This document shows positions 26,081-42,529 of a stretch of 64,000 bases of DNA, piece by piece. The first letter of the stretch is position 1, and each line of letters starts with the position of its first letter. The notes under the pieces are model-generated. The model was not told the DNA's origin, did no database searches, and was given only the letters and a program-made list of their open reading frames with translations. Origin of the DNA: an uncultured Prevotellaceae bacterium (lineage in GTDB: Bacteria > Bacteroidota > Bacteroidia > Bacteroidales > Muribaculaceae). The stretch lies in contig CAMHNO010000002.1 of NCBI GenBank assembly GCA_946186575.1, forward strand, positions 1-64,000, read 5' to 3'. The translations under genes and the position numbers were made by a program.

Positions 26081-26136
26081 TAAGTGTTAAGTTTTAAGTG
26101 TTAAGGCACTTCGAAACACACTTTCATCGTTTTAAA

Positions 26137-26175
26137 AAAATGCACCCGCGCAAGTTCGGCGGGTGCATTTTTTTT
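26137..26175 (+). terminator. Terminator of the 23846 gene
   Basis: 13-bp arms AAAATGCACCCGC (26137-26149) and its complement (26159-26171), then a T-run to 26175. Near-identical to the terminator at 2158-2195. Confidence 0.9.
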
Positions 26176-26239
26176 GCACAAAATCACAAAAAACTTTCTT
26201 AATTCTTGTTTAAATAATGTGTAAATAAAGATTTTTTTG

Positions 26240-26247
26240 TAGTTTTG
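26240..26247 (+). promoter_or_regulatory. -7 promoter box of the vWA/tubulin/actin-like operon
   Basis: TAGTTTTG matches TAnnTTTG, about 80 nt before ATG 26329; only a weak -33 (TGTG, 18 bp away). No other promoter-like element is obvious until after 33380, in line with one transcript. Confidence 0.5.
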
Positions 26248-26328
26248 CAAGTTATAAGGTGAAGTAGACATCACACTTTATAATAGCGCTTATTAAAAAC
26301 TTTGTTTTTAAACACATTGAGAACAAAT

Positions 26329-27789
26329 ATGATAAAACGAGTGTATCACTTGCTGAGCATGGCCATAGCGATGCTGGCAATCGCTCTCACCGCAGCCAGC
26401 TGCGGCGGAGGGGCTCTGGAAAAAAACATTAAACTGGCATTTATCGACGCCGACACCACACAGGCGCGATTCGACTCGATTTGCGCCATCATCAAGGACA
26501 ACCCCAAGAAGTATTCACAATTCATCAAGGGCGACAAAGGCGAAATCAACATCGACGCACTCGCGCAGTACATCAACGAGGTGGGAAGCAAGCTCAGACC
26601 ACCCATGTCGTGGAATGTCAAAGCCTACGGGCTGAAGGAACTCACGCTCACCGTCTACTTTGAGCGAAGCGGCTCGATGATTCCCTACGACACACCAGGC
26701 GGAGGAGGGCAGCTAAAGAAGGCCGTGAACGACCTCATCAACTTCTTCCCAGCCAAAGAGGGTACTAAAATCAACATCGTCAACGACAACATCTACCCCT
26801 ACAGCGGCACCGTCGACTCCTTCCTCCAAGACCGCAACATCTACAGCAGCACAAGCGGCACCGGCGACGCAAGCTACACCGACTTTAAGCTCATCTTCGA
26901 GAAAATCATCCAGGCACAGAAGCCAGGCAACGTGAGTGTGCTTGTCACCGACCTCATCTACTCGCCAAAGAACACTGCCGACGTGAGTGTAGAGAAAATA
27001 CTCAACGAGGAGAACAGTGTGGCAACATCCATCTTCAAAACCTACAAGGGCAAGTCTATCATCGTCAACCAGCTCATGGGCGACTACAATGGTCAGTACT
27101 ACCCCTACAACGGCACTCCATTTGCCTACAACGGCAAGCGACCTTTCTACGTCATCATCGTGGCCGACGCAGCAACCATCGACCGCATGGGGGCCGACGA
27201 CAAGTATGCCAAGTTCCTGCGACCAAGCGGCACCACTGGCAGCTACCGCTTCAACCAGGCACAGAGCGACATCAATTTCAAGCTCGTACCCGACTGGAAG
27301 GACAACGTGGGCAAGTTCCGCCCATCACGAAGCGAGAACAATGTGCTCACCAACTGCGAGGGCGACCGCGAAACGGCAATCATGTGCTTCACTATTGCCG
27401 CCAACCTCAAACCATTAGGCAAGGACGACGCTTTCTTGAGCAATGCCGCAAACTACAACGTGCAGTCACAGAGCGGATTTGAAATCGCGGTGCGTGCCAT
27501 CAAGCCCAGCGACATCACCAACAACAACCGCTCCTACCTCGACGGCATGACTCACCTCATCACAGCCAAGGGCAAGTTCAAGACATCGCGCGACGAGCTC
27601 ACCATCAGCCTGCCCAACCAGTTCCCGCAGTGGATCAAGGACTCGTCGTCGACGAGCGACACCGACCCGGCAGCCGCAGGCTTTGCCAGCACCACATTCG
27701 GCCTGGAACAATTCTTGCAGGGCATCTACGATGCCTTCTCGGCAGGAAACGATAACTATGGTAAAATCGTCATCAAACTCGACAATTAA
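26329..27789 (+). CDS. Lipoprotein with degenerate von Willebrand A-like domain
   Basis: 486 residues from ATG 26329 (an upstream TTG is less likely). Lipoprotein signal with Cys25 in TAASC. At about 105-120 the segment LTVYFERSGSMIPYD resembles a vWA first strand with the MIDAS motif DxSGS, but the Asp is Glu; a later strand VSVLVTDLIYS carries the conserved Asp208. The C-terminal third (IAVRAIKPSDI...SLPNQFPQWI) is not recognised. Probably exposed outside the inner membrane, so a periplasmic or surface adhesion/adaptor module. First gene of the set with the tubulin-like and actin/Hsp70-like genes; 17 bp from the next. Confidence 0.75.
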   Translation: MIKRVYHLLSMAIAMLAIALTAASCGGGALEKNIKLAFIDADTTQARFDSICAIIKDNPKKYSQFIKGDKGEINIDALAQYINEVGSKLRPPMSWNVKAYGLKELTLTVYFERSGSMIPYDTPGGGGQLKKAVNDLINFFPAKEGTKINIVNDNIYPYSGTVDSFLQDRNIYSSTSGTGDASYTDFKLIFEKIIQAQKPGNVSVLVTDLIYSPKNTADVSVEKILNEENSVATSIFKTYKGKSIIVNQLMGDYNGQYYPYNGTPFAYNGKRPFYVIIVADAATIDRMGADDKYAKFLRPSGTTGSYRFNQAQSDINFKLVPDWKDNVGKFRPSRSENNVLTNCEGDRETAIMCFTIAANLKPLGKDDAFLSNAANYNVQSQSGFEIAVRAIKPSDITNNNRSYLDGMTHLITAKGKFKTSRDELTISLPNQFPQWIKDSSSTSDTDPAAAGFASTTFGLEQFLQGIYDAFSAGNDNYGKIVIKLDN

Positions 27790-27806
27790 AACTTAATATA
27801 TCAAAC

Positions 27807-28247
27807 ATGAGAGACAAGGTAATATTCTTAGTAATTGGCATCATCATCACTGTGCTATTCTTCATCTTCAAGGTAACACTTTACGATGCTCTGTACTACT
27901 CCAACGGGTTCAGCAACGACCTGGGTAATCTCGACGAATACACTTCGGTAGCAGCTATCACCATTGCAGTGGCTTGGGGAGGAGCAGCCATCTATTACTA
28001 TGCAATCAACTCGGTGAAGTTCGACCGCTGGTACCACTGGCTCGCCACACTCGCGGTGGTGGCGGTGCTCACACCGTTTATCGACTACTTCGTCACAAGC
28101 TCCATCCTCGACGGCAAGGACTATGGCAGCTCTATCGTCGCGTTCGAGATGCACAACATAGTCTTTGCGGCACTGCTATTTGTCATCGCTTCGTTCTCAA
28201 TGCGCTGGTGGAGCAGCAACTGCCGTCACACCCCCTTCCCGCAATAA
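27807..28247 (+). CDS. Four-helix inner-membrane protein, unknown function
   Basis: 146 residues, four hydrophobic segments (about 5-25, 47-67, 77-97, 115-137: VIFLVIGIIITVLFFIF, AAITIAVAWGGAAIYYYAI, WLATLAVVAVLTPFIDYF, MHNIVFAALLFVIASFSM). Short loops, no enzyme motif. Lies between the vWA-like lipoprotein and the tubulin-like gene with close spacing, so it may be the membrane part linking outside and inside components (inference). Confidence 0.8.
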   Translation: MRDKVIFLVIGIIITVLFFIFKVTLYDALYYSNGFSNDLGNLDEYTSVAAITIAVAWGGAAIYYYAINSVKFDRWYHWLATLAVVAVLTPFIDYFVTSSILDGKDYGSSIVAFEMHNIVFAALLFVIASFSMRWWSSNCRHTPFPQ

Positions 28248-28318
28248 AGAACACTGGTGGACGAATGAGAACATAAACAGCAACTAACCACAACAACAAA
28301 ACGATATATCAGAAACAA

Positions 28319-29848
28319 ATGAAACTATTTGTATTCGCAATAGGCGGCACTGGCTCACGCGTGCTCAAGTCGATGATCATGCTGTGCGCTGCGGGAGTGA
28401 GACCCGTTGATGCCAACGGGCAGCCCCTGCGTGATGTGGAGATTGTGCCCATCATCATCGACCCGCACAAGTCCAACGCCGACCTCAAGCGCACCGAGCG
28501 ACTGCTCAGCGCCTACGGCACCATCCGCGACAAGCTCTACGGCAAGAATGCTAACGCCAATGGCTTCTTCGCCACTAAAATATCGAGCCTCAAGGAGGTG
28601 GTGTCGAGCAGCCAGGTGCCGCTCGACGACTCGTTCATCTTCAACCTGGCGGCGGTCGAGAACTACAAGTTCCGCGACTTCATCAGCTACAACACCATGA
28701 ACGAGCCCAACCAGGCCCTCACCTCGCTGCTCTTTGCCGACTATCAGCTCGAGAACAAAATGAGCATTGGCTTTGTGGGCTCGCCCAACATTGGCAGCGT
28801 GGCGCTCAACGGCATCAAGGACAGCAACGAGTTCAAGGCGTTTGCCAACGTCTTTGCCGACGGCGACCGCATCTTCTTCATAAGCAGCATCTTCGGCGGA
28901 ACTGGAGCCGCCGGCTTCCCCATTATAGTCAAAAACATCAGGCAAGCTAAGAACATCGATGCCAAGAACAAGGCATTCCTGCAGCGAGCACCCATCGGCG
29001 GGCTCACAGTGCTACCCTATTTCTCGCTCATGGAGAGCGACGACAAGCAGGACAAGCGCATCGACAATGCCGACTTCATTGTCAAGACGCAAAGCGCACT
29101 GGAATACTACAACAACACCCTAACCGGCAGTGGACGCAACGCCGTGAACGCCATCTTCTACCTGGGCGACCACGGCCACAACGCACCCTATGCCTACGAC
29201 CCGGGCGACAAGCGCGACCAGCACGACCCCGCCCACCTCATCGAGATGATTGGAGCGCTGGCACCATTCAAGTTCCTGAGCCTGAGCGACAGCGACCTCA
29301 CCGACCTTGCCACAGGAGAGCCATTGCCAACCAAGGCATTTGAGTATGGTTTGGAACGTGACACCGATTTTGTCGATTTCTCGTGCTTCGGACAAGAAAC
29401 TCGCTCGCTCGTCTATCGCCCTATGGTGAAACTGCACCTGCTCTACATCTTCCTGCGCACAGGTCTCGACGGAATGATTGGGCAGGGATTCACCGAAGAT
29501 GCGCCCAAAATCACACGCGAGTTCACTGGCACTCAGTTCTACCGCGTGCTCACACAGCAGTTCTTTGACGGATACATCGAGTGGCTCACAGAGCTGCTGC
29601 ACAACCGCCGCCACGTCACACTCTTCAACGAGGGAGAGATGGACATGAACAAGGCCATTCACAAGGTGCTGACCAAGAAAGGTTTCTTCGGCAGCAAGAA
29701 GGTGGACAACGACGTGTTCAAGGCCGAGATGAACCGCATCAGCCGCGACAGCAACCGCTATGGCTCAAACGCCGAGCTCAAGCTCATGGACCTCTTCTAC
29801 AACGCCGCCGGCAAAATCATCACCGACCGCTACGATAACATCAACTGA
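28319..29848 (+). CDS. Tubulin/FtsZ-like GTPase-type protein
   Basis: 509 residues, cytoplasmic. Opens with FAIGGTGSRVLKSMI (GGTG at 9-12), as in tubulin/FtsZ nucleotide folds, and has a second glycine loop FFISSIFGGTGAAGFPIIV at 187-205 where tubulins carry the signature GGGTG(S/T)G. The first G is replaced (FGGTGAAG), which differs from true FtsZ. The C-terminal half (about 360-500) is not recognised. It resembles the Pfam tubulin-like family rather than the division protein FtsZ, which normally sits in the dcw cluster. Whether it binds GTP or polymerises is unknown. Precedes the actin/Hsp70-like gene by 34 bp. Confidence 0.75.
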   Translation: MKLFVFAIGGTGSRVLKSMIMLCAAGVRPVDANGQPLRDVEIVPIIIDPHKSNADLKRTERLLSAYGTIRDKLYGKNANANGFFATKISSLKEVVSSSQVPLDDSFIFNLAAVENYKFRDFISYNTMNEPNQALTSLLFADYQLENKMSIGFVGSPNIGSVALNGIKDSNEFKAFANVFADGDRIFFISSIFGGTGAAGFPIIVKNIRQAKNIDAKNKAFLQRAPIGGLTVLPYFSLMESDDKQDKRIDNADFIVKTQSALEYYNNTLTGSGRNAVNAIFYLGDHGHNAPYAYDPGDKRDQHDPAHLIEMIGALAPFKFLSLSDSDLTDLATGEPLPTKAFEYGLERDTDFVDFSCFGQETRSLVYRPMVKLHLLYIFLRTGLDGMIGQGFTEDAPKITREFTGTQFYRVLTQQFFDGYIEWLTELLHNRRHVTLFNEGEMDMNKAIHKVLTKKGFFGSKKVDNDVFKAEMNRISRDSNRYGSNAELKLMDLFYNAAGKIITDRYDNIN

Positions 29849-29882
29849 CAACTCACAACTCATAAACTCACACAACTCAACT

Positions 29883-32800
29883 ATGAGTCAAGTACTATCA
29901 TATAACAACAAGACCACCAAGACAAGCGCGCAGGACTGGATTCCGGTAACGCCCTACGTGGACGACGACATCAAGCAAATCAAGGATCCCAACGGAGGGC
30001 TGAGCGAGAACCCGCGCACAGCCATCCCAAGCCCGTTTGCGCAACTCGACCTGGTCAAGAACGCCTTTGAGCATCTGGCAAGCAACGCAAGGCTTGCCGG
30101 CTCGATGATGGACAAGCGACTTGTGTCGAATGCACTCGACGTGGCACAGCTTTTCTTCGACTACGAGAACCACAAGGACTATCTGCACATCGTCAGGTGG
30201 AACCGCGACGAGCAACTCGAGAGGCTCAAGAGCGAACCAGAGCACCGCCTCTATGGCGAGACTCTCGAACTCTTCCTCGCAAGCGACACCAAGTACAACT
30301 TCAACATGCTCACCGACTGGTACATCCTGCTATGGAACAGCCAGGTGATTGGAGCTACCTCGCCGGCATCGATGACCATTGCGGTGCCACGCGAGAGCGA
30401 GCGACCCATCACAGGCATTAAGGTGGAGCAAGGCATCTCGCTCTTCGACAGCGACACGCGCGACCTGTGGCAGCGCGACGAGGACTTCGTCTACTACATG
30501 TTCATGCTCTTCAACGCTTTCCCCACGCTGCGCACCGCTGTCAAGGGGGTCTACGACTACATGCTCAAAAACAAGGACATCATCATGCAGGAGAAGCCGA
30601 CGCTCTACTCTCGTCTGACCCAGGTGATCCCCAACCTCGAGGCACTAAGCTATGAGCTCGCGCCACGACTGGTGGAGAGACTCGACCTGGAGTTCGACCC
30701 ATTTGTGGGCGACGACGAGGTCACGGTGCTCGGAGCAAGACTCTACCACAAGCGCTCGCGCGACATCATGACGGCTGCCGCCACAAGCGACTTTGTAATC
30801 GCTCCCACTCGCCACATCGACGGCAAGCTGCCTCTGGTGCTGCGCAACAACTTCAACGGCAGTGTCGACCACTACATCTACATCGACAAGGAATGGGACA
30901 GCTCCACACAGGTCTTTGCTGCTGGCATTCCCATCGACAAGCGCAAGCTCCCCGACACGAGCATCATCTACCCCTTCATCACCACTGGCGACTTCCTGCA
31001 AGACACGCTGGTGAGGCTGAGTGGGCCCATCGATGAGCACCACTACTTCAACGGCAACGTCACTAACAAGATATCAATGCAGTGCAACGGCTACTTGCTG
31101 CCGCTCACGCCAGAGTTCTTCAAGTACTTCAATGCAAGCGACGTCACTAAGCAAGTGAACGGGCGCAACATGCTCGAGATGGAAGAACTAAACGACGGCT
31201 CGGTCAACGTCACGCTGCGAGTGCCACTCAAGAAGCGACACATCGAGCTCACGCGCAACTACTACCCCATCGACGACCCATCGTGGCACTTCGACGAGAA
31301 GCGAGGCACTGGACGCATCATCACTAATGTGATAATGTCGGCTGCAATCTTCCCCTTTGTGCGCACCAACTATAAGGACGACTACACCGTGCAGCTGTTC
31401 TCTATGATTGATGGTGGCAACGTGAAGCTCAATTTCTTCAACGATGGCATGACCACTGGCGACATCAAGTGCAGCGGCAAACTGCGCACACAAGGCTCCT
31501 ACTCTACCACCTACTACGACATAGAGGGAGCCTTCGACATGATGCAGGCCGTTATCAACACTCCTGCCGGTGAGTTCACCGGCTACATCGTGCCCATGTG
31601 GAAGCCCTACGTCGCAAGCAGCAAGGAACTGATTTTTGCTGTCGACTTTGGAACTACCAACAGCCACGTCGAGTGGTCCGAGCGAGGACACGACGCGCAA
31701 GACCTGGAGTTCAAGCATGGCGACAGGCAAGTGCTCATCGCTTCGCTGCTCAAGCGAGGCACTCTCCTCTTTGCCGACCAGCTACAGCGTGTGGAATTCC
31801 TGCCAAGCGACATCGACAATGTGTACGGATTCCCGCTGCGCAGCGCTCTGGCACGCAATGCCATCAGCACTGGTGGCCACAAGCTCTTTGGCGATATCAA
31901 CATACCATTCCTTTATGAGCGACAATACTTTGATGGCTACGACATCACCACCAATCTCAAGTGGATGGGCGACATCACTCTCTCGCGGGAATTCCTGCGC
32001 GAACTGGTGTTGCTCATCAAGGCCAAGGTGCTGCTCGAGAATGGTGACCTCAACCGAACCAGCATCGTCTACTTCTTCCCAGTGAGCATGGGAGGTAGCG
32101 ACCGACGCAAGCTCGACGACACGTGGAATGAGCTATATCACACCTACTTTGGCGACGACACCAGCCACCTCCACGCCTATCCCGAGAGCATTGCACCGGC
32201 CTATTTCTACCGTGGCGACGACGTGAGCGGAGGCAGCTTTGTCTCTATCGACATTGGAGGTGGCACCACCGACACCGTCATCTATCAGCCCACCGCCAAC
32301 CGCCTCGACACCGAGCCAGTGGCCATATCTTCGTTCCGATTTGCTGGTGACGCCATCTTTGGCGACGCTTTCACCGAGCGTGATGCCGACAACAACCCGC
32401 TCATACGCCACTATGGCGAGTACTTTAAACGACTTATCTCAAAAAACAGCGACATAGGCTACCTCAACAGCATCCTTCAAGACGTGCTCAAACGCAAGCG
32501 ATCGCAAGACGTGAACGCCTTCCTCTTCTCAATCGAGAACGTGGAGCAACTGCGCGAGCTGCGCGAGGTGGACCGCAACATCTACAGCTACAACACCTTG
32601 CTGCGCAACGACTCGCAGCGCAAGCTCATCTTCATGTATTTCTATGCCGCCATCATCTACTACATCGCACAATCGATGAAGGCGCGCAACTACGAGATGC
32701 CCAAGCAAATCTACTTCAGCGGCACAGGCTCCAAAATTCTGAACATACTGGGCAGCAAAGACCAGATAATTGAGTTCACACAACTAATTCTTGAGAGGGT

Positions 32801-33314
32801 CTTCGACAAAAAATACACCGAGCGATTCTCTATCAAGATTGAGCAAAAGAGCCCTAAGCAAATCACATGCCGCGGAGGCATCAACCTCGAAAGCCTGCGC
32901 ATGGACGGCAACGTCGACGTGCAACGGCTCACACCACGCAATGTCAACGCCATGAAGTACTGCTACTCCATGATCGACGACAAGCCGCTGACCATCAGAT
33001 CGGTCTATGAAATTGAAACCCGCGACCACCTCATCGAGCAGGTGAAGCGATTCAACGACTTCTTTGTGGCGCTGTGCGACAATGTTACCAAAGACGAGTT
33101 TGGCATCGACAACAAGGTGTTCAAGATTTTCACCAGTGTGCTGGGCGACGACATTGGCAACTACCTCACTGCAGGCATTGGAAACTACCTCAAGGGACGA
33201 TATGAGGGCGACGAGGCCATCGAGGACGTGCCGTTCTTCTACCCCATCATCGGCATCATCCGCCACAACCTGCTCAAGAACTTGTGCAACGAGGTAATTT
33301 CACGCACGGTTTAG
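29883..33314 (+). CDS. Large protein with actin/Hsp70-type ATPase core
   Basis: 1143 residues from ATG 29883; a longer reading frame starting inside the previous gene is rejected. Residues 1-575 are unrecognised. The C-terminal half carries the three actin-fold motifs in order: phosphate-1 FAVDFGTTNSHVEW (585-598), phosphate-2 SIDIGGGTTDTVIY (788-801) and adenosine loop IYFSGTGSKILNIL (943-956). This is an ASKHA ATPase related to Hsp70/MreB, far longer than DnaK and lacking a recognisable DnaK substrate-binding domain. General similarity to SrfB-type large Hsp70-like proteins is possible. Cytoplasmic; partner of the tubulin-like protein by context. Confidence 0.82.
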   Translation: MSQVLSYNNKTTKTSAQDWIPVTPYVDDDIKQIKDPNGGLSENPRTAIPSPFAQLDLVKNAFEHLASNARLAGSMMDKRLVSNALDVAQLFFDYENHKDYLHIVRWNRDEQLERLKSEPEHRLYGETLELFLASDTKYNFNMLTDWYILLWNSQVIGATSPASMTIAVPRESERPITGIKVEQGISLFDSDTRDLWQRDEDFVYYMFMLFNAFPTLRTAVKGVYDYMLKNKDIIMQEKPTLYSRLTQVIPNLEALSYELAPRLVERLDLEFDPFVGDDEVTVLGARLYHKRSRDIMTAAATSDFVIAPTRHIDGKLPLVLRNNFNGSVDHYIYIDKEWDSSTQVFAAGIPIDKRKLPDTSIIYPFITTGDFLQDTLVRLSGPIDEHHYFNGNVTNKISMQCNGYLLPLTPEFFKYFNASDVTKQVNGRNMLEMEELNDGSVNVTLRVPLKKRHIELTRNYYPIDDPSWHFDEKRGTGRIITNVIMSAAIFPFVRTNYKDDYTVQLFSMIDGGNVKLNFFNDGMTTGDIKCSGKLRTQGSYSTTYYDIEGAFDMMQAVINTPAGEFTGYIVPMWKPYVASSKELIFAVDFGTTNSHVEWSERGHDAQDLEFKHGDRQVLIASLLKRGTLLFADQLQRVEFLPSDIDNVYGFPLRSALARNAISTGGHKLFGDINIPFLYERQYFDGYDITTNLKWMGDITLSREFLRELVLLIKAKVLLENGDLNRTSIVYFFPVSMGGSDRRKLDDTWNELYHTYFGDDTSHLHAYPESIAPAYFYRGDDVSGGSFVSIDIGGGTTDTVIYQPTANRLDTEPVAISSFRFAGDAIFGDAFTERDADNNPLIRHYGEYFKRLISKNSDIGYLNSILQDVLKRKRSQDVNAFLFSIENVEQLRELREVDRNIYSYNTLLRNDSQRKLIFMYFYAAIIYYIAQSMKARNYEMPKQIYFSGTGSKILNILGSKDQIIEFTQLILERVFDKKYTERFSIKIEQKSPKQITCRGGINLESLRMDGNVDVQRLTPRNVNAMKYCYSMIDDKPLTIRSVYEIETRDHLIEQVKRFNDFFVALCDNVTKDEFGIDNKVFKIFTSVLGDDIGNYLTAGIGNYLKGRYEGDEAIEDVPFFYPIIGIIRHNLLKNLCNEVISRTV

Positions 33315-33379
33315 ACAACTTTTTTCAGACAATAAACAAAACAAACTAATAACACACATCAAAAATCAATCGTATCGAA

Positions 33380-34672
33380 ATGAAAAAAATTCTATTCACA
33401 CTCTTGTGCATCATGGCCACCATGAGCACTATGGGACTAAGCGCCCAGGACAACGCTAAGAACCTCAATCCAGGTCAGTGGAAACATGGACTCGCCATCG
33501 GAGCTCAGTGGATTGCACGCGACATGGGGTTCGCACAAGCCGAAGAACAAGTGATCTCGCGCACCAACGAGAACTACACTCTCGACGACCTAAAAAACAT
33601 GTATGGCAGCCGCGACAAGTGGATGACAGTCTACAACAAACTCAAGGCTCACGAGAATGAGAGTGGCGACATCGACAAGCTCGTCACTACAGTTGCTGCC
33701 GAGTATGAAAAAGGTGCTGTTATCAAGAACGGCATGAAAAAAGATGTTGAGAAATACAACGCAAGCCACGATGGTAACGAGGTGGGCGCTACCACAGCAC
33801 CCGACCCTGCCGCCAGCAACAACGCCGACGCAGCAAGCACCACCATCACTACAACCAACGACTCAACTGCGGCTCAAGACAAAAACGCAAGCGACGACAA
33901 GAAAGACGATGGCTCGCACTCGGGTGGACACGGATTTCTCTACCTGCTCTCTATTTTGGGACTCGCACTGGGAGCTATTGGCACTTTCCTCGCACTGCAA
34001 GCACGCAAGGAGAACCAGGCCATCATGAGCGACATCAACGGCGACATCAACAACATGCAGAAGCAGCTCGACAAGATGCGCTCTTCACTCAAGAACGACC
34101 ATCCCGTGACACTGGGAAAAGCTGCTAAGCGCGACACTAAGCTCAACGAGACCGAGGCTCTGGCTCAAACCAAGAAGATAGACTTTGGTGCAAAGCCTGC
34201 TCAAAAACAAGAACCCAAGAAAGAGGCAAAGAAAGAAGAACCCAAGAATGAGGTGAAGAAGGAAGAGAAGAAAGACGAAAAGAAGGACGAAAAGAAAGAA
34301 ATAAAGAAAGAAGAGCCCAAGCAGGAAGAGAAGAAAGCTACCATACTGGGTGAGCCACGCATCCTCTTCATGGCCAAGCCCGACGAGGACGACAACTTCT
34401 CGCGCTCATCTTCTCAATATGAGCCTGGAAACTCTATCTTTGAGCTCACTACTATGGACGGTAAGAGCGGTTCGTTCACCGTTATCAACAAAGCCGACGC
34501 CCACAAGCTGGCCCTGCTCATGCCAGGCGACACTCTCACTCGCGCCTGCTCTGGCAACAACATCCAGTCTACTGCCGGCAAGTCGCGCATCATCACCGAC
34601 CGTGCCGGACGCGCACAGCTCGAGAACGGCAAGTGGCACATCGTGGTCAAAGCTATCGTTCACTACGACTAA
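33380..34672 (+). CDS. Membrane protein with signal peptide, coiled coil and Lys/Glu-rich linker
   Basis: 430 residues. Signal peptide about 1-22 (ending LSAQ); extracytoplasmic part to about 185 with a Ser/Thr/Asp-rich spacer; one membrane helix about 190-210 (FLYLLSILGLALGAIGTFLAL); coiled coil about 212-245 (INGDINNMQKQLDKMRSSL); a highly charged KEEPK-type linker about 275-325; and a compact C-terminal domain (ILFMAKPDEDDNF...AQLENGKWHIVVKAIVHYD). Topology predicts the coiled coil and C-terminal domain in the cytoplasm, where they could tether the tubulin- or actin-like proteins (inference). No known family recognised. Confidence 0.8.
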   Translation: MKKILFTLLCIMATMSTMGLSAQDNAKNLNPGQWKHGLAIGAQWIARDMGFAQAEEQVISRTNENYTLDDLKNMYGSRDKWMTVYNKLKAHENESGDIDKLVTTVAAEYEKGAVIKNGMKKDVEKYNASHDGNEVGATTAPDPAASNNADAASTTITTTNDSTAAQDKNASDDKKDDGSHSGGHGFLYLLSILGLALGAIGTFLALQARKENQAIMSDINGDINNMQKQLDKMRSSLKNDHPVTLGKAAKRDTKLNETEALAQTKKIDFGAKPAQKQEPKKEAKKEEPKNEVKKEEKKDEKKDEKKEIKKEEPKQEEKKATILGEPRILFMAKPDEDDNFSRSSSQYEPGNSIFELTTMDGKSGSFTVINKADAHKLALLMPGDTLTRACSGNNIQSTAGKSRIITDRAGRAQLENGKWHIVVKAIVHYD

Positions 34673-34682
34673 TGCTCACACC

Positions 34683-34746
34683 TGAAAACCATAATGGGGG
34701 ATGCGTCAAGAGATATGCATCTTTAGCGCAATCCCCCATTTTCAGT
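34683..34746 (+). terminator. Terminator-like hairpin after the 33380 gene
   Basis: Arms AATGGGGGAT (34693-34702) and ATCCCCCATT (34731-34740) extended by TGAAAA/TTTTCA with a small bulge. It separates the first five genes of the set from the two zinc-ribbon genes. Confidence 0.65.
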
Positions 34747-34776
34747 TTATTACTTAACATTTAACACTTAACCATA

Positions 34777-35457
34777 GTGCACATTTTCTGCCCCGAATGT
34801 GGGAAACATATCGACGTGTCGATTCAAGAAATCGAGAGGCTCGAAGGACACTACGTGTGCCCTCAGTGCCTCACCGAGATTAATCTTGACATCGACACCG
34901 GCAAGAAAAACACAACCATCGAGCCACAGGCACCAGCCCACAGCCACAGCGGTAGCCAAGATAAAGAAATCAACGAATCGCAGGCTCAGCACCACACCAT
35001 CACTGCCAGCGACAATGCCTCAGACCACAGCAGTAGCAGCACGCCACCGGCTCAACCCGAGCACGCCAATGCCCACGACAACGCCGCAACGCTGCAGCAA
35101 GAGCCCGAGCAAGTCGACGCCGTGATCAGATACTGCAAAAACTGCGGCGCGTTTATCAAGGAAGGCGCCAACTTCTGCCCTAAATGCGGCAAGTTTGTGA
35201 GAGTGAAACCACCCAAATATCAGTCTCAACAGTCAAAGAAGTCGTCATCGCCACCACCCTACAAGAAATCAGTAACACAAGACCACAGTCAACGATTATC
35301 AACTCCCACCACTCCCATGGCCAACAATAAACGAAAATCTGCAAGCGCAAAAAAAGAAAAATCACAGTTCAGCATCCTGAGCATTGGCGGATGCCTGGCT
35401 CTGACGGTAATTGTGGTTGCGCTGTTCTTCATTGTCTACATTTTCATTGGAGAGTAA
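34777..35457 (+). CDS. Double zinc-ribbon protein with C-terminal membrane anchor
   Basis: 226 residues starting at GTG 34777; no in-frame ATG precedes the first zinc ribbon. N-terminal ribbon CPECGKHIDV...CPQC (residues 4-32), a polar His/Gln/Ser-rich linker, a second ribbon CKNCGAFIKEGANFCPKCGKF (about 119-139), a basic Ser/Pro/Lys stretch, and a single C-terminal helix (about 200-223, ALTVIVVALFFIVYIFIG). Tail-anchored with both ribbons in the cytoplasm. The 35552 gene has the same general plan, so the two look like a functional pair attached to the upstream set. Confidence 0.75.
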   Translation: MHIFCPECGKHIDVSIQEIERLEGHYVCPQCLTEINLDIDTGKKNTTIEPQAPAHSHSGSQDKEINESQAQHHTITASDNASDHSSSSTPPAQPEHANAHDNAATLQQEPEQVDAVIRYCKNCGAFIKEGANFCPKCGKFVRVKPPKYQSQQSKKSSSPPPYKKSVTQDHSQRLSTPTTPMANNKRKSASAKKEKSQFSILSIGGCLALTVIVVALFFIVYIFIGE

Positions 35458-35551
35458 CAGTAATCTTGTTTTACACATTATTATATATATTCACGCTCAC
35501 TCATCTTGCCTGAGCAACCCTCAATGGCAATTAACAACATAAGCTCTATTC

Positions 35552-36193
35552 ATGAAGATTGAATGTCCAAAGTGCGGATTCGCAACACAGCAATCACAAG
35601 AAGAACTCAGCAAGCTCAACAACACCATCACTTGCCCCAAGTGCATGTCGCAACTCAAAATTGTGAATGGTGTTGCCTACATACCCACAACCAACACTCC
35701 ACTCGAGGAGCTGAAACCGCACGAAGAGCAACCACCACAGTTCAAGGGAGAGGAATACTACAACACTCACATCACTCACGGCAATCTCGACCCGCTCTAC
35801 GATGACGCCATCAGCTATATCAAGACCTGCAATGTCATCACTCTGCCAATGCTGCAACGCTACTTCGACATCACACCTGAGAGGGCCGAAACGCTCATGC
35901 AGCAGCTCGAGGACAACAAGATTGTGGCACCCTACGACGGCAAAGGACCGCGCAAGATTCTCATCGAACACAACACTAATCTCTCGTGGAACACCTCTCA
36001 CATCAGAAACTTCGAGAAAGACAAGCAAAACGCGCAGATGATGCAAGAGATGATGCGCAGCAAAATCGAAGATGACAAAAACAATCCCGACAAGCGCATC
36101 AAGAGCTGCTCATGCGCTCTGCCAAGCCTGGGAATAATCCTCATGGCGCTAATCGCAATCTACTTCCTTATCAGACTAATAACCAACCAATAG
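35552..36193 (+). CDS. Zinc-ribbon protein with FtsK-gamma-like winged helix and membrane tail
   Basis: 213 residues. N-terminal zinc ribbon CPKCGFATQQ...CPKC (5-32); linker; winged-helix segment about 80-138 (DPLYDDAISYIKTCNVITLPMLQRYFDI..AETLMQQLEDNKIVAPYDGKGPRKIL) that closely follows the gamma domain of the FtsK translocase, the part that binds KOPS DNA; a helical charged stretch; and a C-terminal membrane helix (about 187-208). There is no FtsK motor. It suggests membrane-tethered DNA contact, or reuse of the fold for protein binding. Last gene of the block. Confidence 0.8.
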   Translation: MKIECPKCGFATQQSQEELSKLNNTITCPKCMSQLKIVNGVAYIPTTNTPLEELKPHEEQPPQFKGEEYYNTHITHGNLDPLYDDAISYIKTCNVITLPMLQRYFDITPERAETLMQQLEDNKIVAPYDGKGPRKILIEHNTNLSWNTSHIRNFEKDKQNAQMMQEMMRSKIEDDKNNPDKRIKSCSCALPSLGIILMALIAIYFLIRLITNQ

Positions 36194-36858: not shown

Positions 36859-36874
36859 CTCCTCTCTCCACTTG

Positions 36875-36948
36875 CGGTGCGTACAGGACTCGAACCAGCG
36901 ACCTCCTGCGTGACAGGCAGGCATTCTAACCAACTGAACTAACGCACC
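36875..36948 (-). tRNA. tRNA-Asp (anticodon GTC)
   Basis: 74 nt. Acceptor arms GGTGCGT and ACGCACC pair fully, discriminator G, anticodon stem CCTGC/GCAGG around loop CTGTCAC (anticodon GTC), T-loop GGTTCGAGTCC. The CCA end is not encoded. Confidence 0.97.
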
Positions 36949-39215: not shown

Positions 39216-40109
39216 TCAAAACTTAGTGCTGGCACCACCACCGCCAAAGTCGCCTCCGCCGTAACCATACTTGTAGGGTTCAGGCTCCTGGGGCTTGTCT
39301 GGTTCATCGTCCTCCGAGTCGTCTTCCGAATCGTCGTCCGAATTATCCTCGGTTTCGGTGTCATTGTCACTGTCGGTTGTTTCTTTTTCTATATTCTCAT
39401 CGTTAGGCTTGCTGGCTTGAGGTACATGGCTTGCCACATTGCTTGCGGCAGCCATGCCAGCAGCCATGCTCTTGCGACGGCGACGCCACAGTGCCACAAG
39501 CGCTATCACCAGCACCACAAGTGCCAGCGTAAACCAGCCATTGCCGCCACCGCTCTTCTTGGCAGGCTTGGTGTCGGCAGCAGCAGCCAGAGCCTGTTTT
39601 TCGTTGTAATCGTTGAGCACAACAGGCACTATCTCCTTGACGGCAGCTTCTATGCCGCCGGCATAGTCGCCATCCTTGAAGTGAGGCACCATGTAGTCGC
39701 TCTGAAGGCGCTTGCAAAACACGTCGGGGAAAATTCCCTCCAGCCCATAGCCTGTAGCAAACCCCACCTCGCCGGCGCCATTGTCGGTTCGGGGCTTTAC
39801 CACTATCACCAGTCCGTTGTTCTTCTTTTTGCCGCCCACTCCCCACTCGCGCCCGAGCTCGGTGGCAAACTCATTGGCATCTTTACCTGCCAGGTCGCCT
39901 ACGGTGACTATAACAATCTGAGTGCCGGTGCGCTTCGACAGGCTATCGAGCTCGGCATTGAGAGCACTCACCAGCGAGTCATTTTTTATAATACCTGCCA
40001 GGTCAACAACTGGCGATGCCTGTGCGGGCTTAGCAGGAACTTGAGCAAGACCCAAACCCCACACCACAGCTACAAGAGCAAAAACTATAGTTCTATATAA
40101 TACCTTCAT
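39216..40109 (-). CDS. TPM-domain membrane protein with acidic tail
   Basis: 297 residues. Signal peptide about 1-22; TPM domain about 33-165 (VVDLAGIIKNDSL, TGTQIVIVTVGDLAGKDANEFATELGREWGVGGKKKNNGLVIVV, GYGLEGIFPDVFC, KDGDYAGGIEAAV); membrane helix about 190-208 (WFTLALVVLVIALVALW) followed by an Arg/Lys stop sequence; then a very acidic Asp/Glu/Ser tail and a Gly-rich end. TPM domains face the periplasm. Their role is unclear: phosphatase activity in some plants, and a link to photosystem repair and membrane stress. Confidence 0.85.
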   Translation of the reverse strand: MKVLYRTIVFALVAVVWGLGLAQVPAKPAQASPVVDLAGIIKNDSLVSALNAELDSLSKRTGTQIVIVTVGDLAGKDANEFATELGREWGVGGKKKNNGLVIVVKPRTDNGAGEVGFATGYGLEGIFPDVFCKRLQSDYMVPHFKDGDYAGGIEAAVKEIVPVVLNDYNEKQALAAAADTKPAKKSGGGNGWFTLALVVLVIALVALWRRRRKSMAAGMAAASNVASHVPQASKPNDENIEKETTDSDNDTETEDNSDDDSEDDSEDDEPDKPQEPEPYKYGYGGGDFGGGGASTKF

Positions 40110-40167
40110 TTTCTCAACCGTTTCAACACTTTAACAACTTGTCATTTATAACTTACCACTCAAGAAA

Positions 40168-40974
40168 CTACCAGCTGCCGCCACCACCGCCGCCGCCAAA
40201 CGAGCCGCCGCCGAAGCCGCCCCAGCCACCGCCGCCAAACGAGCCACCGCCACCCCAGCTGCTGCCAGAGCTGCGACCGCTGCCGAAGGAGCCTGGGAAG
40301 ATGATGGGCCCGCCGGTGTAGGTGCGGGTGTTATTGCCATTGCCGTTGTTGCCGTTACTGCTCATCACAACAAAGATGAAGCAAATTATCAGCAACAGCA
40401 CAATAATGGCAAGCACTGGGTCGCCATCGTCATTCATGAGAGACTCGGCCTCGTCAAAGTCGCCCTTCAGCGCAGGCTTTATCACCTCTAAGGCCGCAAG
40501 CACACCGCCGGCATAATCATTATCCTTGAAGTAAGGTATCATCACCTCGTCCACGATGTTGTGGCACAACAGGTCGGGCAGCGGACCCTCGGCACCATAG
40601 CCGGTGCTGATGAACGCGCGGCCGCGGCCAGCAGCATCATCGCCGGTCTTGGGCTTGATAATGACCACCACGCCATTGTCTTTTCCCTTGTAGCCCACGC
40701 CCCACTTCTGACCCACTTGCTGGCCAAACTCGGCTGGCTCCATGCCGTCGAGCATCTTGCTGGTGACGGTCATCACCACCACCTGGTTGCTGGTAGTGCG
40801 CGAGAAGGTCTCGAGCGAGTCTTCGATCTCGGCTTTCTCGCTTGAGCTAAACACTCCTGCATAGTCCCACACGAGCAGTTTCTCGGCAGGCTTATCGGGC
40901 ACCTGAGCATTCAAGTTCAAGGCGATGCCCAGCATAGTGAGTATATAAAGTGTAAAATATAAGCGTCGTGTCAT
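40168..40974 (-). CDS. TPM-domain membrane protein with Gly/Ser/Trp-rich tail
   Basis: 268 residues from ATG 40974 (a TTG two codons earlier is less likely). Signal peptide about 1-23 (ending LNLNAQ); TPM domain about 31-170 (VWDYAGVFSSSEKAEIEDSL, QVVVMTVTSKMLDGMEPAEFGQQVGQKWGVG, GYGAEGPLPDLLC, KDNDYAGGVLAAL); helix about 187-205 (VLAIIVLLLIICFIFVVM); and a low-complexity tail GSSWGGGGSFGGGGWGG of the kind typical for YgcG-type TPM proteins. Confidence 0.88.
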   Translation of the reverse strand: MTRRLYFTLYILTMLGIALNLNAQVPDKPAEKLLVWDYAGVFSSSEKAEIEDSLETFSRTTSNQVVVMTVTSKMLDGMEPAEFGQQVGQKWGVGYKGKDNGVVVIIKPKTGDDAAGRGRAFISTGYGAEGPLPDLLCHNIVDEVMIPYFKDNDYAGGVLAALEVIKPALKGDFDEAESLMNDDGDPVLAIIVLLLIICFIFVVMSSNGNNGNGNNTRTYTGGPIIFPGSFGSGRSSGSSWGGGGSFGGGGWGGFGGGSFGGGGGGGSW

Positions 40975-41030
40975 TATCAAAAAAGTGCTAAAATAATAAA
41001 TCCATCAAGACATCTCGAACTTTAACAGCA

Positions 41031-41615
41031 TTAATGTTTCTTTGTCAAGATAGTCTTTATCTCATCGAGGGCAGCATTGATGCCGCCAGCATAGTCATTG
41101 TCCTTGAATTGCGGAACCATCTTCTCGTTGGCGATGATAGTACACATCTCATCGGTGATAATCTTCTCCATTCCTGTGCCTGTGGCAATAGCCACTTGGC
41201 CTTTCTGGTCGTGAACATCTCCACCCTTGGGCTTGATGACGATGGTAATGCCATCATTGGTCTCCTTGCGGCCTACGCCCCATTTATTACCCAGTGCCAC
41301 AGCATAGTCATGGATATCCATTCCTGCAAGGTCGTCGACGATGACCACTGCCACTTGCGCCAGCTTTAGGCTATCGAGCTCTGCAGCTTTTTTGTTGATT
41401 GTGTCAACCTCACTCGCTTTCAGAATGGAGGCTTGGTCAAGGACAAAGGAATTGAGTGGTTCGGGCAATGCGTTATTGATGTCGGCTTTATTCTTCACCG
41501 TCGAGCTCGTTTGCGAACTATTGCCTGCCTGCCCCGAGTCGCTGGAATTCCTGCATGCCGGCAATGCCACAAGTAGCACTGCCATAGCCAGAAATATTAT
41601 AACTTTATTCTTCAT
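41031..41615 (-). CDS. TPM-domain lipoprotein
   Basis: 194 residues from ATG 41615 (upstream TTG rejected). Lipobox LPAC with Cys20, Ser/Asn-rich spacer, then TPM domain about 45-190: NSFVLDQASILKASEVDTI, QVAVVIVDDLAGMDIHDYAVALGNKWGVG, KDNDYAGGINAALDEI. No membrane helix after the domain, so this member is held only by lipid. Third TPM protein of the cluster. Confidence 0.87.
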   Translation of the reverse strand: MKNKVIIFLAMAVLLVALPACRNSSDSGQAGNSSQTSSTVKNKADINNALPEPLNSFVLDQASILKASEVDTINKKAAELDSLKLAQVAVVIVDDLAGMDIHDYAVALGNKWGVGRKETNDGITIVIKPKGGDVHDQKGQVAIATGTGMEKIITDEMCTIIANEKMVPQFKDNDYAGGINAALDEIKTILTKKH

Positions 41616-41695
41616 AATAGAAACCTTATTGCTCAATCGTTAAGCATCACCTGCGCTGCTATGTGTGTGTGGCGCAATGCTAATGTTGCTAATTT

Positions 41696-42004
41696 CTAAT
41701 TCTTTTGCTGCTGAGCTTCGGCCTTGGTGTTGGGCAATTCCTTTGCTTCCACCTTCTTGTCCTTGATGGGCTTGCAGTCCTTAGATGCTGGCAATGTCTT
41801 TATTGCGGCTTTGCTTGTGTCGATGCGCTGAACCATCTTCCGGGTCTTGGTGAGGTCGGCTTTCTCGGCCTTGTTTAGCGGTACGGGCTTGATCTGAGAG
41901 CCCGATGCCGACACACTCGATTTTGAATCCTTGCTGCCGCATGAACTCACTGCCATTGTGGCCACCATAGCCACAACCAGCAGTTTTAACATTCTATTCT
42001 TCAT
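41696..42004 (-). CDS. Small lipoprotein in the LemA/TPM cluster
   Basis: 102 residues from ATG 42004; another ATG at 42016 is possible. Lipobox VSSC (Cys22), then a short basic, Lys-rich polypeptide (PLNKAEKADLTKTRKMVQRI, KPIKDKKVEAKELP) without a known domain. It overlaps the end of the 41994 TPM gene by 11 bp, so they are translationally coupled. Probably an accessory of the TPM proteins. Confidence 0.75.
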   Translation of the reverse strand: MKNRMLKLLVVAMVATMAVSSCGSKDSKSSVSASGSQIKPVPLNKAEKADLTKTRKMVQRIDTSKAAIKTLPASKDCKPIKDKKVEAKELPNTKAEAQQQKN

Positions 42005-42431
42005 AAGAAATCTCATTGCTTAATTCGTTCTCATCATCTTCCTCAATGGGGAAGAATGTTTTCAACTTCTCACCCACGCTGGCAATCACCTTGCACAACC
42101 CCGTGGCAGGGTCACCAGCCTTGAGCTGTTCGAGCAGCACGTCCTTCTCGGTCTCCCAGTAATTCTCGGGCACCACTGCATTGATGCCGGCATCGCCCAG
42201 AATGGCAAACTTGCGACTCTCAAATGCCACATAGATGAGCACGCCGTTGCGGTGGCGAGTCTTGTACATCTTCAGGCGGTTAAAGGTCTTGATGGCCTCG
42301 CGCATCACGTCTTTGCCACACTTGGGGGTGAGGTGCACGCGAATCTCACCCGAGGTCATCTCCTCGGCCTGACCAATGGCATCGACCACGCGGCGCTGGT
42401 CGGTAATGCTCATGAAATCATCCAGTTTCAT
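41994..42431 (-). CDS. TPM-domain protein without export signal
   Basis: 145 residues from ATG 42431; a longer frame from 42515 has no supporting start context. It begins directly with the domain (MSITDQRRVVDAIGQAEEMTSGEIRVHL, LKMYKTRHRNGVLIYVAFESRKFAILGDAGI) and has an acidic C-terminus (PIEEDDENELSNEISYEE). No signal peptide or helix is visible, so this paralog is predicted cytoplasmic, unlike the other three. It sits between lemA and the small lipoprotein gene. Confidence 0.85.
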   Translation of the reverse strand: MKLDDFMSITDQRRVVDAIGQAEEMTSGEIRVHLTPKCGKDVMREAIKTFNRLKMYKTRHRNGVLIYVAFESRKFAILGDAGINAVVPENYWETEKDVLLEQLKAGDPATGLCKVIASVGEKLKTFFPIEEDDENELSNEISYEE

Positions 42432-42529
42432 TGCTTTTTGAGTAGTGAAATAGTAGAGTAGTGGAATAGCGGAGCATGCCATTTCATAGCAACTTGGCCA
42501 AACCCGATATTCCACTACAGTGCCTGAAA

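Follow-up and report, generated by a model that had tools for sequence, protein, structure and literature searches.

An operon core pairing a predicted tubulin-fold protein with an actin-fold protein across distant bacteria, in part with a ZorAB-like motor pair

Introduction

Here, we analysed a stretch of 64,000 nucleotides (the window; positions 1 to 64,000 of the forward strand of contig CAMHNO010000002.1, GenBank assembly GCA_946186575.1) from an uncultured Prevotellaceae bacterium. It carries an operon of seven genes, A to G, in which a protein with a predicted tubulin fold (C) is encoded beside a protein with an actin-fold ATPase domain (D). We found that C and D almost always lie side by side and that their sequence distances track each other. 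Two features of the operon family are new: a ZorAB-like pair of motor genes continuing the operon in 15 of 42 distant loci, and the fusion of one ZorA-like tail with the domain that forms the C-terminus of protein E. The cytomotive proteins fall into two families, those of the tubulin fold and those of the actin fold. If an operon core keeps both paired across distant bacteria, alongside trans-envelope parts and, in some loci, an ion motor, this would connect the cytoskeleton with membrane motors and perhaps with immunity. Two questions become testable, namely the role of FtsZl1/Tubulin_2 proteins and whether ZorA-type tails can act via cytoskeletal proteins instead of nucleases.

Results

The seven open reading frames (ORFs), all on the plus strand between 26,329 and 36,193, are intact and separated by 17, 71, 34, 65, 104 and 94 nucleotides (nt), in agreement with an earlier note on this DNA, which had described seven co-directional genes with short gaps (Table 1). 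That note had also called C tubulin-like. By sequence, C of the window matched the Pfam model Tubulin at E 0.0057 only and Tubulin_2 (PF13809) with 14.8 bits, under the cut-off of 27; the homologous C of a plasmid (locus L107), which tblastn with the window protein as query reached at E 3e-15, scored 40.8 bits against PF13809 and thus lies over the same cut-off. Structure searches with the predicted model of C (pLDDT 75, pTM 0.81) returned tubulin/FtsZ entries all through the result lists, and both the T1 loop (GGTG; G9, G10, G12) and the T4 loop (FGGTGAAG; F192, G193, G194, T195, G196) were invariant in 16 of 16 C rows. The claim is borne out by the loops and the model search, and C is predicted to have the tubulin GTPase fold; a structure prediction without this fold, which the note had named as a refuting outcome, was thus not what we obtained. 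In FtsZ and tubulin, an acid in the T7 loop is required for polymer-linked GTP hydrolysis. The corresponding position of C, residue 356, which we infer by sequence alone to lie before the next helix, is an Asp in nine of the 16 rows; the window has Cys there, and its two close rows have Ala.

Protein D has an ASKHA (actin/Hsp70-type) domain at residues 580-1020. Foldseek ranked Hsp70 nucleotide-binding domains (NBDs) first (E 5e-8), and the VIA list had FtsA on top, near-tied with other ASKHA proteins; a sequence-profile search of the PDB with D gave no match. Invariant in 17 of 17 D rows are D588, G590, T591, E768, S769, A771, D790, G792, G793, D797 and G947, which we take to represent the phosphate-1, connect-1, phosphate-2 and adenosine motifs. 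The connect-1 motif of D is comparable to EPxAA of Hsp70. The actin-fold motifs that had been noticed earlier are hence supported by the structure search and by the invariant residues: D is a protein with an actin-fold ATPase domain and complete nucleotide-site motifs. Like SrfB (PF07520), D is a large protein with the ASKHA phosphate-2 motif, but it has no full-length homology to that family, and an assignment to SrfB was rejected, given a weak Pfam match (0.16) and an hhalign alignment of merely 40 columns around this motif. A separate, bona fide SrfB (PF07520, E 2.7e-177) is encoded elsewhere in the window's genome (G000:C21:322-3357, locus L101), so that two large ASKHA proteins, D and SrfB, occur there side by side.

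How constant is the pairing of C and D? In all following counts of spread, the window's own genome is included. Among 198 genomes of the order, 13 carry C, as do 14 of the 395 genomes searched for the phylum. The nearest named relatives are metagenome-assembled genomes from rumen and omasum, labelled Muribaculaceae, Prevotellaceae or Bacteroidales. A scan of GTDB contigs yielded 42 close loci (C 58-96% identical). Within this close set, window included, C and D both occur in 39 loci and lie within 700 nt of each other in 37 of those; D is split into two ORFs in L058 and was not seen in the available DNA of L032, L043, L044 and L050. The distant set comprises another 42 loci, some ended by contig edges, in which C and D share 19-46% and 16-38% identity, respectively, with the window proteins where aligned. 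Both genes are found in 36 of them, in every case (36/36) on the same strand, adjacent and -20 to 186 nt apart. The other six are a contig end (L066), two loci in which no D was found (L069, L071), one with a weak D only (L073, counted as a miss), one with an interrupted C and no D (L091) and one with D and E, yet no C (L136); a further weak match, L086 (G563), was left out. The profile of A matches 28 and that of B 27 of the 42 distant loci, and wherever all four profiles match, the order A-B-C-D on one strand is kept (25/25). The co-occurrence of tubulin-like and ASKHA genes that the earlier note had proposed to look for, naming synteny confined to close relatives as the outcome that would speak against it, reaches far beyond close relatives.

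These synteny counts are not a blind sample, because the loci were gathered through C or D. The fairest test of the pairing is a search with D alone (close-family profile), which was positive in 16 of 395 genomes of the class: C adjoins D in 15 of the 16, own genome included. Eight genomes were already known through C or are that of the window itself; among the eight loci fetched anew, A-B-C-D-E is present in seven. Pairwise distances over 30 loci point in the same direction (C-D r 0.951, or 0.914 for distant pairs; A-C r 0.829; A-D r 0.887; 0/2000 permutations each).

Some loci depart from the usual layout. Four ORFs lie between C and D in L040 (10915-13943), and RHS-repeat-like ORFs, named by eye, follow C in L050 (10527-18162), where no D was seen; from these two loci, an insertion hot spot inside the operon is possible. 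One genome (G193) carries two copies of the operon (L060, L062) that differ in their downstream genes.

In the 15 distant loci with a motor pair (L103 and L104 being near-copies, and L134 having a broken c4), the operon continues with c4, which is of MotA type and has a long helical tail, and with c5, which is of MotB type. PADLOC assigned the pair of L061 to ZorB (c5, 1e-16) and ZorA (c4, 1.7e-11); in L059, c5 matched ZorB at 2.7e-12 and c4 matched LeoBC at 6e-8, with ZorA merely at 0.028. Pfam matches to both proteins were all under cut-offs, c5 giving weak matches to MotB-plug and OmpA. When the ZorA-like profile was searched against the PDB, coiled-coil matches were discounted and rows covering the MotA core alone were counted, namely 8qyy (E 0.0071) and 8vvi (E 4.8e-4). 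In L132, the ZorA-like tail ends in a domain that matches the C-terminal one of E (i-E 1.2e-6), a fusion by which E is tied to the motor tail. Mapped on the tree of C, presence of the motor requires 7 changes, 4 of them forced by starred branches, which fits one gain followed by losses or several gains. At E 1e-3, a search with the c4 profile was positive in 27 of 390 genomes, of which ten lie below E 1e-80, and in nine of these ten A-B-C-D adjoins; six genomes at 1e-41 to 1e-61 carry a shorter c4.

Further motor-like genes were noticed in passing. Upstream of a distant C-D pair in L099 (6704-8812, oriented), one gene looks like MotB/OmpA and another codes for a lipoprotein resembling A, both judged by eye and below profile detection. 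In L150-L154, a short c4-c5 pair is found without A-B-C-D in the ordinary chromosomal setting of one family and is perhaps a housekeeping motor. In L149 (G772), c4-c5-c5 stands with a gene that by eye resembles an ADP-ribosylglycohydrolase, and close to one that by eye resembles a reverse transcriptase, perhaps as another motor-based system.

Proteins A and B provide the outer and membrane side of the core. A carries a lipoprotein export signal and the motif VYFERSGSM, with Glu instead of Asp at the first position of the metal ion-dependent adhesion site (MIDAS). Of 28 A rows, L105, L098 and L072 were chosen by gene position and the others by profile match; 23 have Glu at this residue, four have Asp and one has Gln, the Asp type being confined to both cyanobacterial plasmid proteins, L098 and L072. 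The replacement, which had been described from the window alone, is thus real and lineage-wide. The vWA identity claimed along with it fared less well: Pfam vWA models matched none of the 28 members at E 0.05, and the A profile found no meaningful match in the PDB, while hhalign of A with four vWA proteins gave E 8.8e-4 and a probability of 23%, collinear over the motifs, as compared to 0-0.4% for three unrelated control profiles. On these alignments, A is a putative vWA protein with moderate support. For B, which had been taken for a four-helix protein, the hydropathy threshold gives three membrane segments, not four.

E has a signal-like segment, one further transmembrane (TM) segment, a coiled region and a C-terminal beta domain, as expected from its earlier description as a membrane coiled-coil protein; its PADLOC matches (PD-T4-6 1.4e-4, oMTase 1.2e-3) were rejected and put down, by eye, to coiled or acidic composition. 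The description of F and G as tail-anchored zinc-ribbon proteins likewise stands, F having zinc ribbons (Pfam DZR 2.6e-9) and a C-terminal TM segment, and G a zinc ribbon, a C-terminal TM segment and an FtsK_gamma domain (E 7.6e-14; 51.6 bits versus a curated cut-off of 30.6). G is not an FtsK, since it has 213 residues and is without the motor domain. The profiles of F and G each match 33 of the 43 close loci, window included, and none of the 42 distant ones, so that both look like lineage-specific add-ons as judged from their profiles. This restriction to close relatives speaks against a core function in DNA positioning: of the span from outside over membrane and cytoplasm to DNA that the earlier note had envisaged, the outside and membrane parts are retained, while the DNA part finds no support as core. 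Other zinc-ribbon ORFs were seen by eye in L062 and L106.

Genes flanking the operon were sampled (120 random of 213, including operon genes missed by the profiles, such as E of L059 or, in L105, the gene in the position of A). The sample holds SNase (2), TerD (3), L,D-transpeptidase YkuD (3) and NlpC/P60 (2) genes. Strong PADLOC matches include those to PDC-S01 in two proteins and to MTase_II, MzaA and RTasRmuC in one each; among the 25 PADLOC families listed, each occurs in at most 3 of the 120 proteins. A trypsin-like gene stands in L059, and a lipoprotein named aspartyl-protease-like from its DTG motif occurs in seven of the 42 distant loci and in one of the 43 close ones. In L098 (16839-18730, oriented), three TerD-domain genes and, seen by eye, others lie downstream of a distant C-D pair, possibly bridging the operon to Ter systems.

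C also matches five cyanobacterial plasmids. A, C and D are co-directional on plasmid L108, A is on the opposite strand on plasmid L107, and both have a small ORF without profile match in the position of B. Prevotella oral taxon 299 carries A-B-C-D-E on a 1.77 Mb replicon from the plasmid collection. Four IMG/VR contigs were found, three with A-B-C-D (L102, L103, L104) and one with C and D only by profile (L105). L102, with a phage tail-type gene, and L105, with ParB/methyltransferase, amidoligase and invertase-type genes, look mobile because of these neighbours; IMG/VR membership alone is no proof of a virus.

Discussion

The earlier note knew of no described system with this composition, which was too strong. 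Operons of vWA and tubulin-like genes were reported by Makarova & Koonin in 2010, whose account places FtsZl1/Tubulin_2 with vWA proteins, GTPases, kinases and OmpA proteins (PMC2875224). Our operon resembles these, with a tubulin-like gene beside that of a vWA protein (a putative one in ours) and, in several of their genomes, an OmpA-family protein as well. In the passages of that paper on these operons, most FtsZl1 proteins are extended by a long coiled coil plus a C-terminal helical domain, and kinases and GTPases are reported, while an ASKHA partner or motor pair is not named (PMC2875224). Kaur et al. (2020) predicted conflict systems around the GTPase GAP1-N2, with tubulin (~52%) and HSP70 (~14%) described there as non-overlapping themes (PMC7159879). 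As far as that description goes, tubulin, Hsp70, vWA (putative in our operon), zinc ribbons, TM or wall-binding parts and predicted sub-membrane assemblies are common to both, whereas the tubulin and Hsp70 themes occur together here and no such GTPase was seen (PMC7159879). The Walker A pattern is absent from all seven window proteins, and no P-loop (TRAFAC) GTPase is among the Pfam matches listed. In 83 other operons, 6 of 597 genes have the pattern; by eye, none looks like a GAP1-type GTPase, with the one of L064 (571 aa, ParA-like start, also NKxD) as a possible exception. A 2023 phylogeny, in the part that concerns them, leaves out Tubulin_2 proteins as divergent. Among the open-access titles and abstracts listed, supplements apart, none other than the papers of 2010 and 2020 was seen to describe such a composition. 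The pair of an actin-fold and a tubulin-fold protein recalls FtsA-FtsZ; D differs by its large additional N-terminal region, Pfam gives it no FtsA match over the cut-off, and the operons are not alike in content. In Zorya, as outlined in PMC11890865, ZorB binds peptidoglycan, ion flow drives ZorA, and the ZorA tail recruits nucleases on phage attack. The long-tailed MotA-like protein and the MotB-like protein of the motor-bearing loci correspond to ZorAB, but A-B-C-D stands in place of ZorC/D/E, and the window branch is without the pair.

Following these findings, we suggest that C and D probably work together at the membrane. As a whole, we tentatively read the operon as a machine for sensing and assembly that spans the membrane and is driven by nucleotides, a reading that may well prove wrong, and for which we rely on the folds of C and D, their nucleotide motifs and adjacency, the A-B-C-D order and the agreement of distances, on the ZorAB-like pairs, the E/ZorA-like fusion and the protease, SNase and L,D-transpeptidase neighbours, and on plasmid and IMG/VR carriage and the patchy spread. 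A, together with B, would read a ligand or damage outside, and E would relay the signal inward via its C-terminal domain. C and D could then co-assemble on the membrane under GTP/ATP control, with D acting on C as FtsA does on FtsZ, or as a chaperone loading C, and the assembly might act via an exchangeable output module: in part of the family the ZorAB-like motor, sometimes with an exported protease or nuclease, and in the window branch the membrane-anchored zinc-ribbon proteins F and G, one with a DNA-binding domain. In motor-bearing loci, the C-D pair would be the cytoplasmic partner of the motor and E the adapter; in the window branch, which is without motor, A, B and E may form the sensing side. 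The purpose would most likely be to react to attacks on the envelope, for instance by phage injection, the weakest step of this argumentation. A conflict system had been one of the alternatives raised earlier, and it gains weight because of the ZorAB-like pair and the protease and nuclease genes, although the PADLOC scan of the flanks had no control set. In its fullest form, namely trans-envelope immune machines in which the lipoprotein and a ZorAB-type motor sense phage or damage and trigger joint C-D assembly, with E as adapter and an output swapped between lineages, we regard the proposal as unlikely.

Several observations weigh against the sensing and assembly machine. Neither C nor one distant D matched anything among 50,697 phage records. 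The motor pair is found in none of the 43 loci of window and close set, and the window's genome gave a single ZorA-like match at E 0.106, which was not credited (that genome was searched for ZorA-like, not for ZorB-like). The reverse search with c4 is largely circular, because rows of its profile came from eight of the nine genomes in support; the independent genomes are G914, with A-B-C-D, and G772, a c4-c5-c5 locus without it. Shorter c4 stands with c5 alone in five loci from four genomes (G894 and G908 left out), ZorAB-like pairs of this kind are also found solitary or with other partners, and ZorC/D/E were not noticed beside the ZorAB-like pairs. The distance test of C and D is uncorrected for shared species history. 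In the flanks, Pfam matches include many ordinary genes, and the control-free PADLOC scan of the 120 genes hit 78 families at E 1e-5.

Could the operon instead maintain peptidoglycan or the envelope with an ion motor, by a logic like that of Tol-Pal or GldLM and with no conflict role? The weak MotB-plug/OmpA matches of the ZorB-like protein, the YkuD and NlpC/P60 genes and ordinary neighbours in the flanks, lipoprotein A and an SH3-like accessory in L095 (by eye) would fit such a machine; the patchy distribution, the carriage on cyanobacterial plasmids, the missing motor of the window branch and the nuclease and protease neighbours in some loci would not, and we consider it rather improbable, if a serious contender. 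A cytomotive cytoskeleton, in which C and D filaments position membrane or DNA, had been the leading idea of the earlier note and would explain why both cytomotive folds are so closely paired and why G has an FtsK-gamma domain. However, distant loci match neither the F nor the G profile, the T7 acid is unconserved and replaced in the window branch, and filament formation is not implied, because Foldseek ranks Hsp70 first for D; this makes a cytoskeleton quite unlikely. That same ranking would suit an Hsp70-type chaperone cascade, with D remodelling C and the surface protein A without filaments or sensing, as would the vWA domains described as co-chaperones of MoxR-vWA systems in the corresponding part of PMC7159879; all the same, we hold this to be very unlikely.

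Features of the window

Upstream of A, a single match to TAnnTTTG, which we take to be a candidate Bacteroidota -7 promoter element, was found within 26081-26329; the promoter scan also gave sigma-70-like matches, but none in 26081-26328. The terminator-like sites found in the scan of the window are on the minus strand only.

Table 1 Coordinates of the operon genes and of the candidate promoter element in the window
Feature	Position	Strand	Description
A	26329..27789	+	vWA-like lipoprotein; E-x-S-G-S-M, lipobox Cys
B	27807..28247	+	small multi-pass membrane protein, 146 aa
C	28319..29848	+	predicted tubulin/FtsZ fold, Tubulin_2/FtsZl1-related, 509 aa
D	29883..33314	+	actin/Hsp70 (ASKHA), 1143 aa; N-terminal ~580 residues without fold assignment
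E	33380..34672	+	signal-like segment, one TM, coiled linker, C-terminal beta domain common to one ZorA-like tail
F	34777..35457	+	zinc-ribbon protein, C-terminal TM, GTG start
G	35552..36193	+	zinc ribbon, FtsK-gamma winged helix, C-terminal TM
Candidate promoter element TAnnTTTG	26240..26247	+	sole match in the interval searched

Downstream of the operon, positions 36,874-36,948 of the minus strand code for a tRNA-Asp, followed by a minus-strand gene run with a TPM-like sequence (39216-42515; naming by eye).

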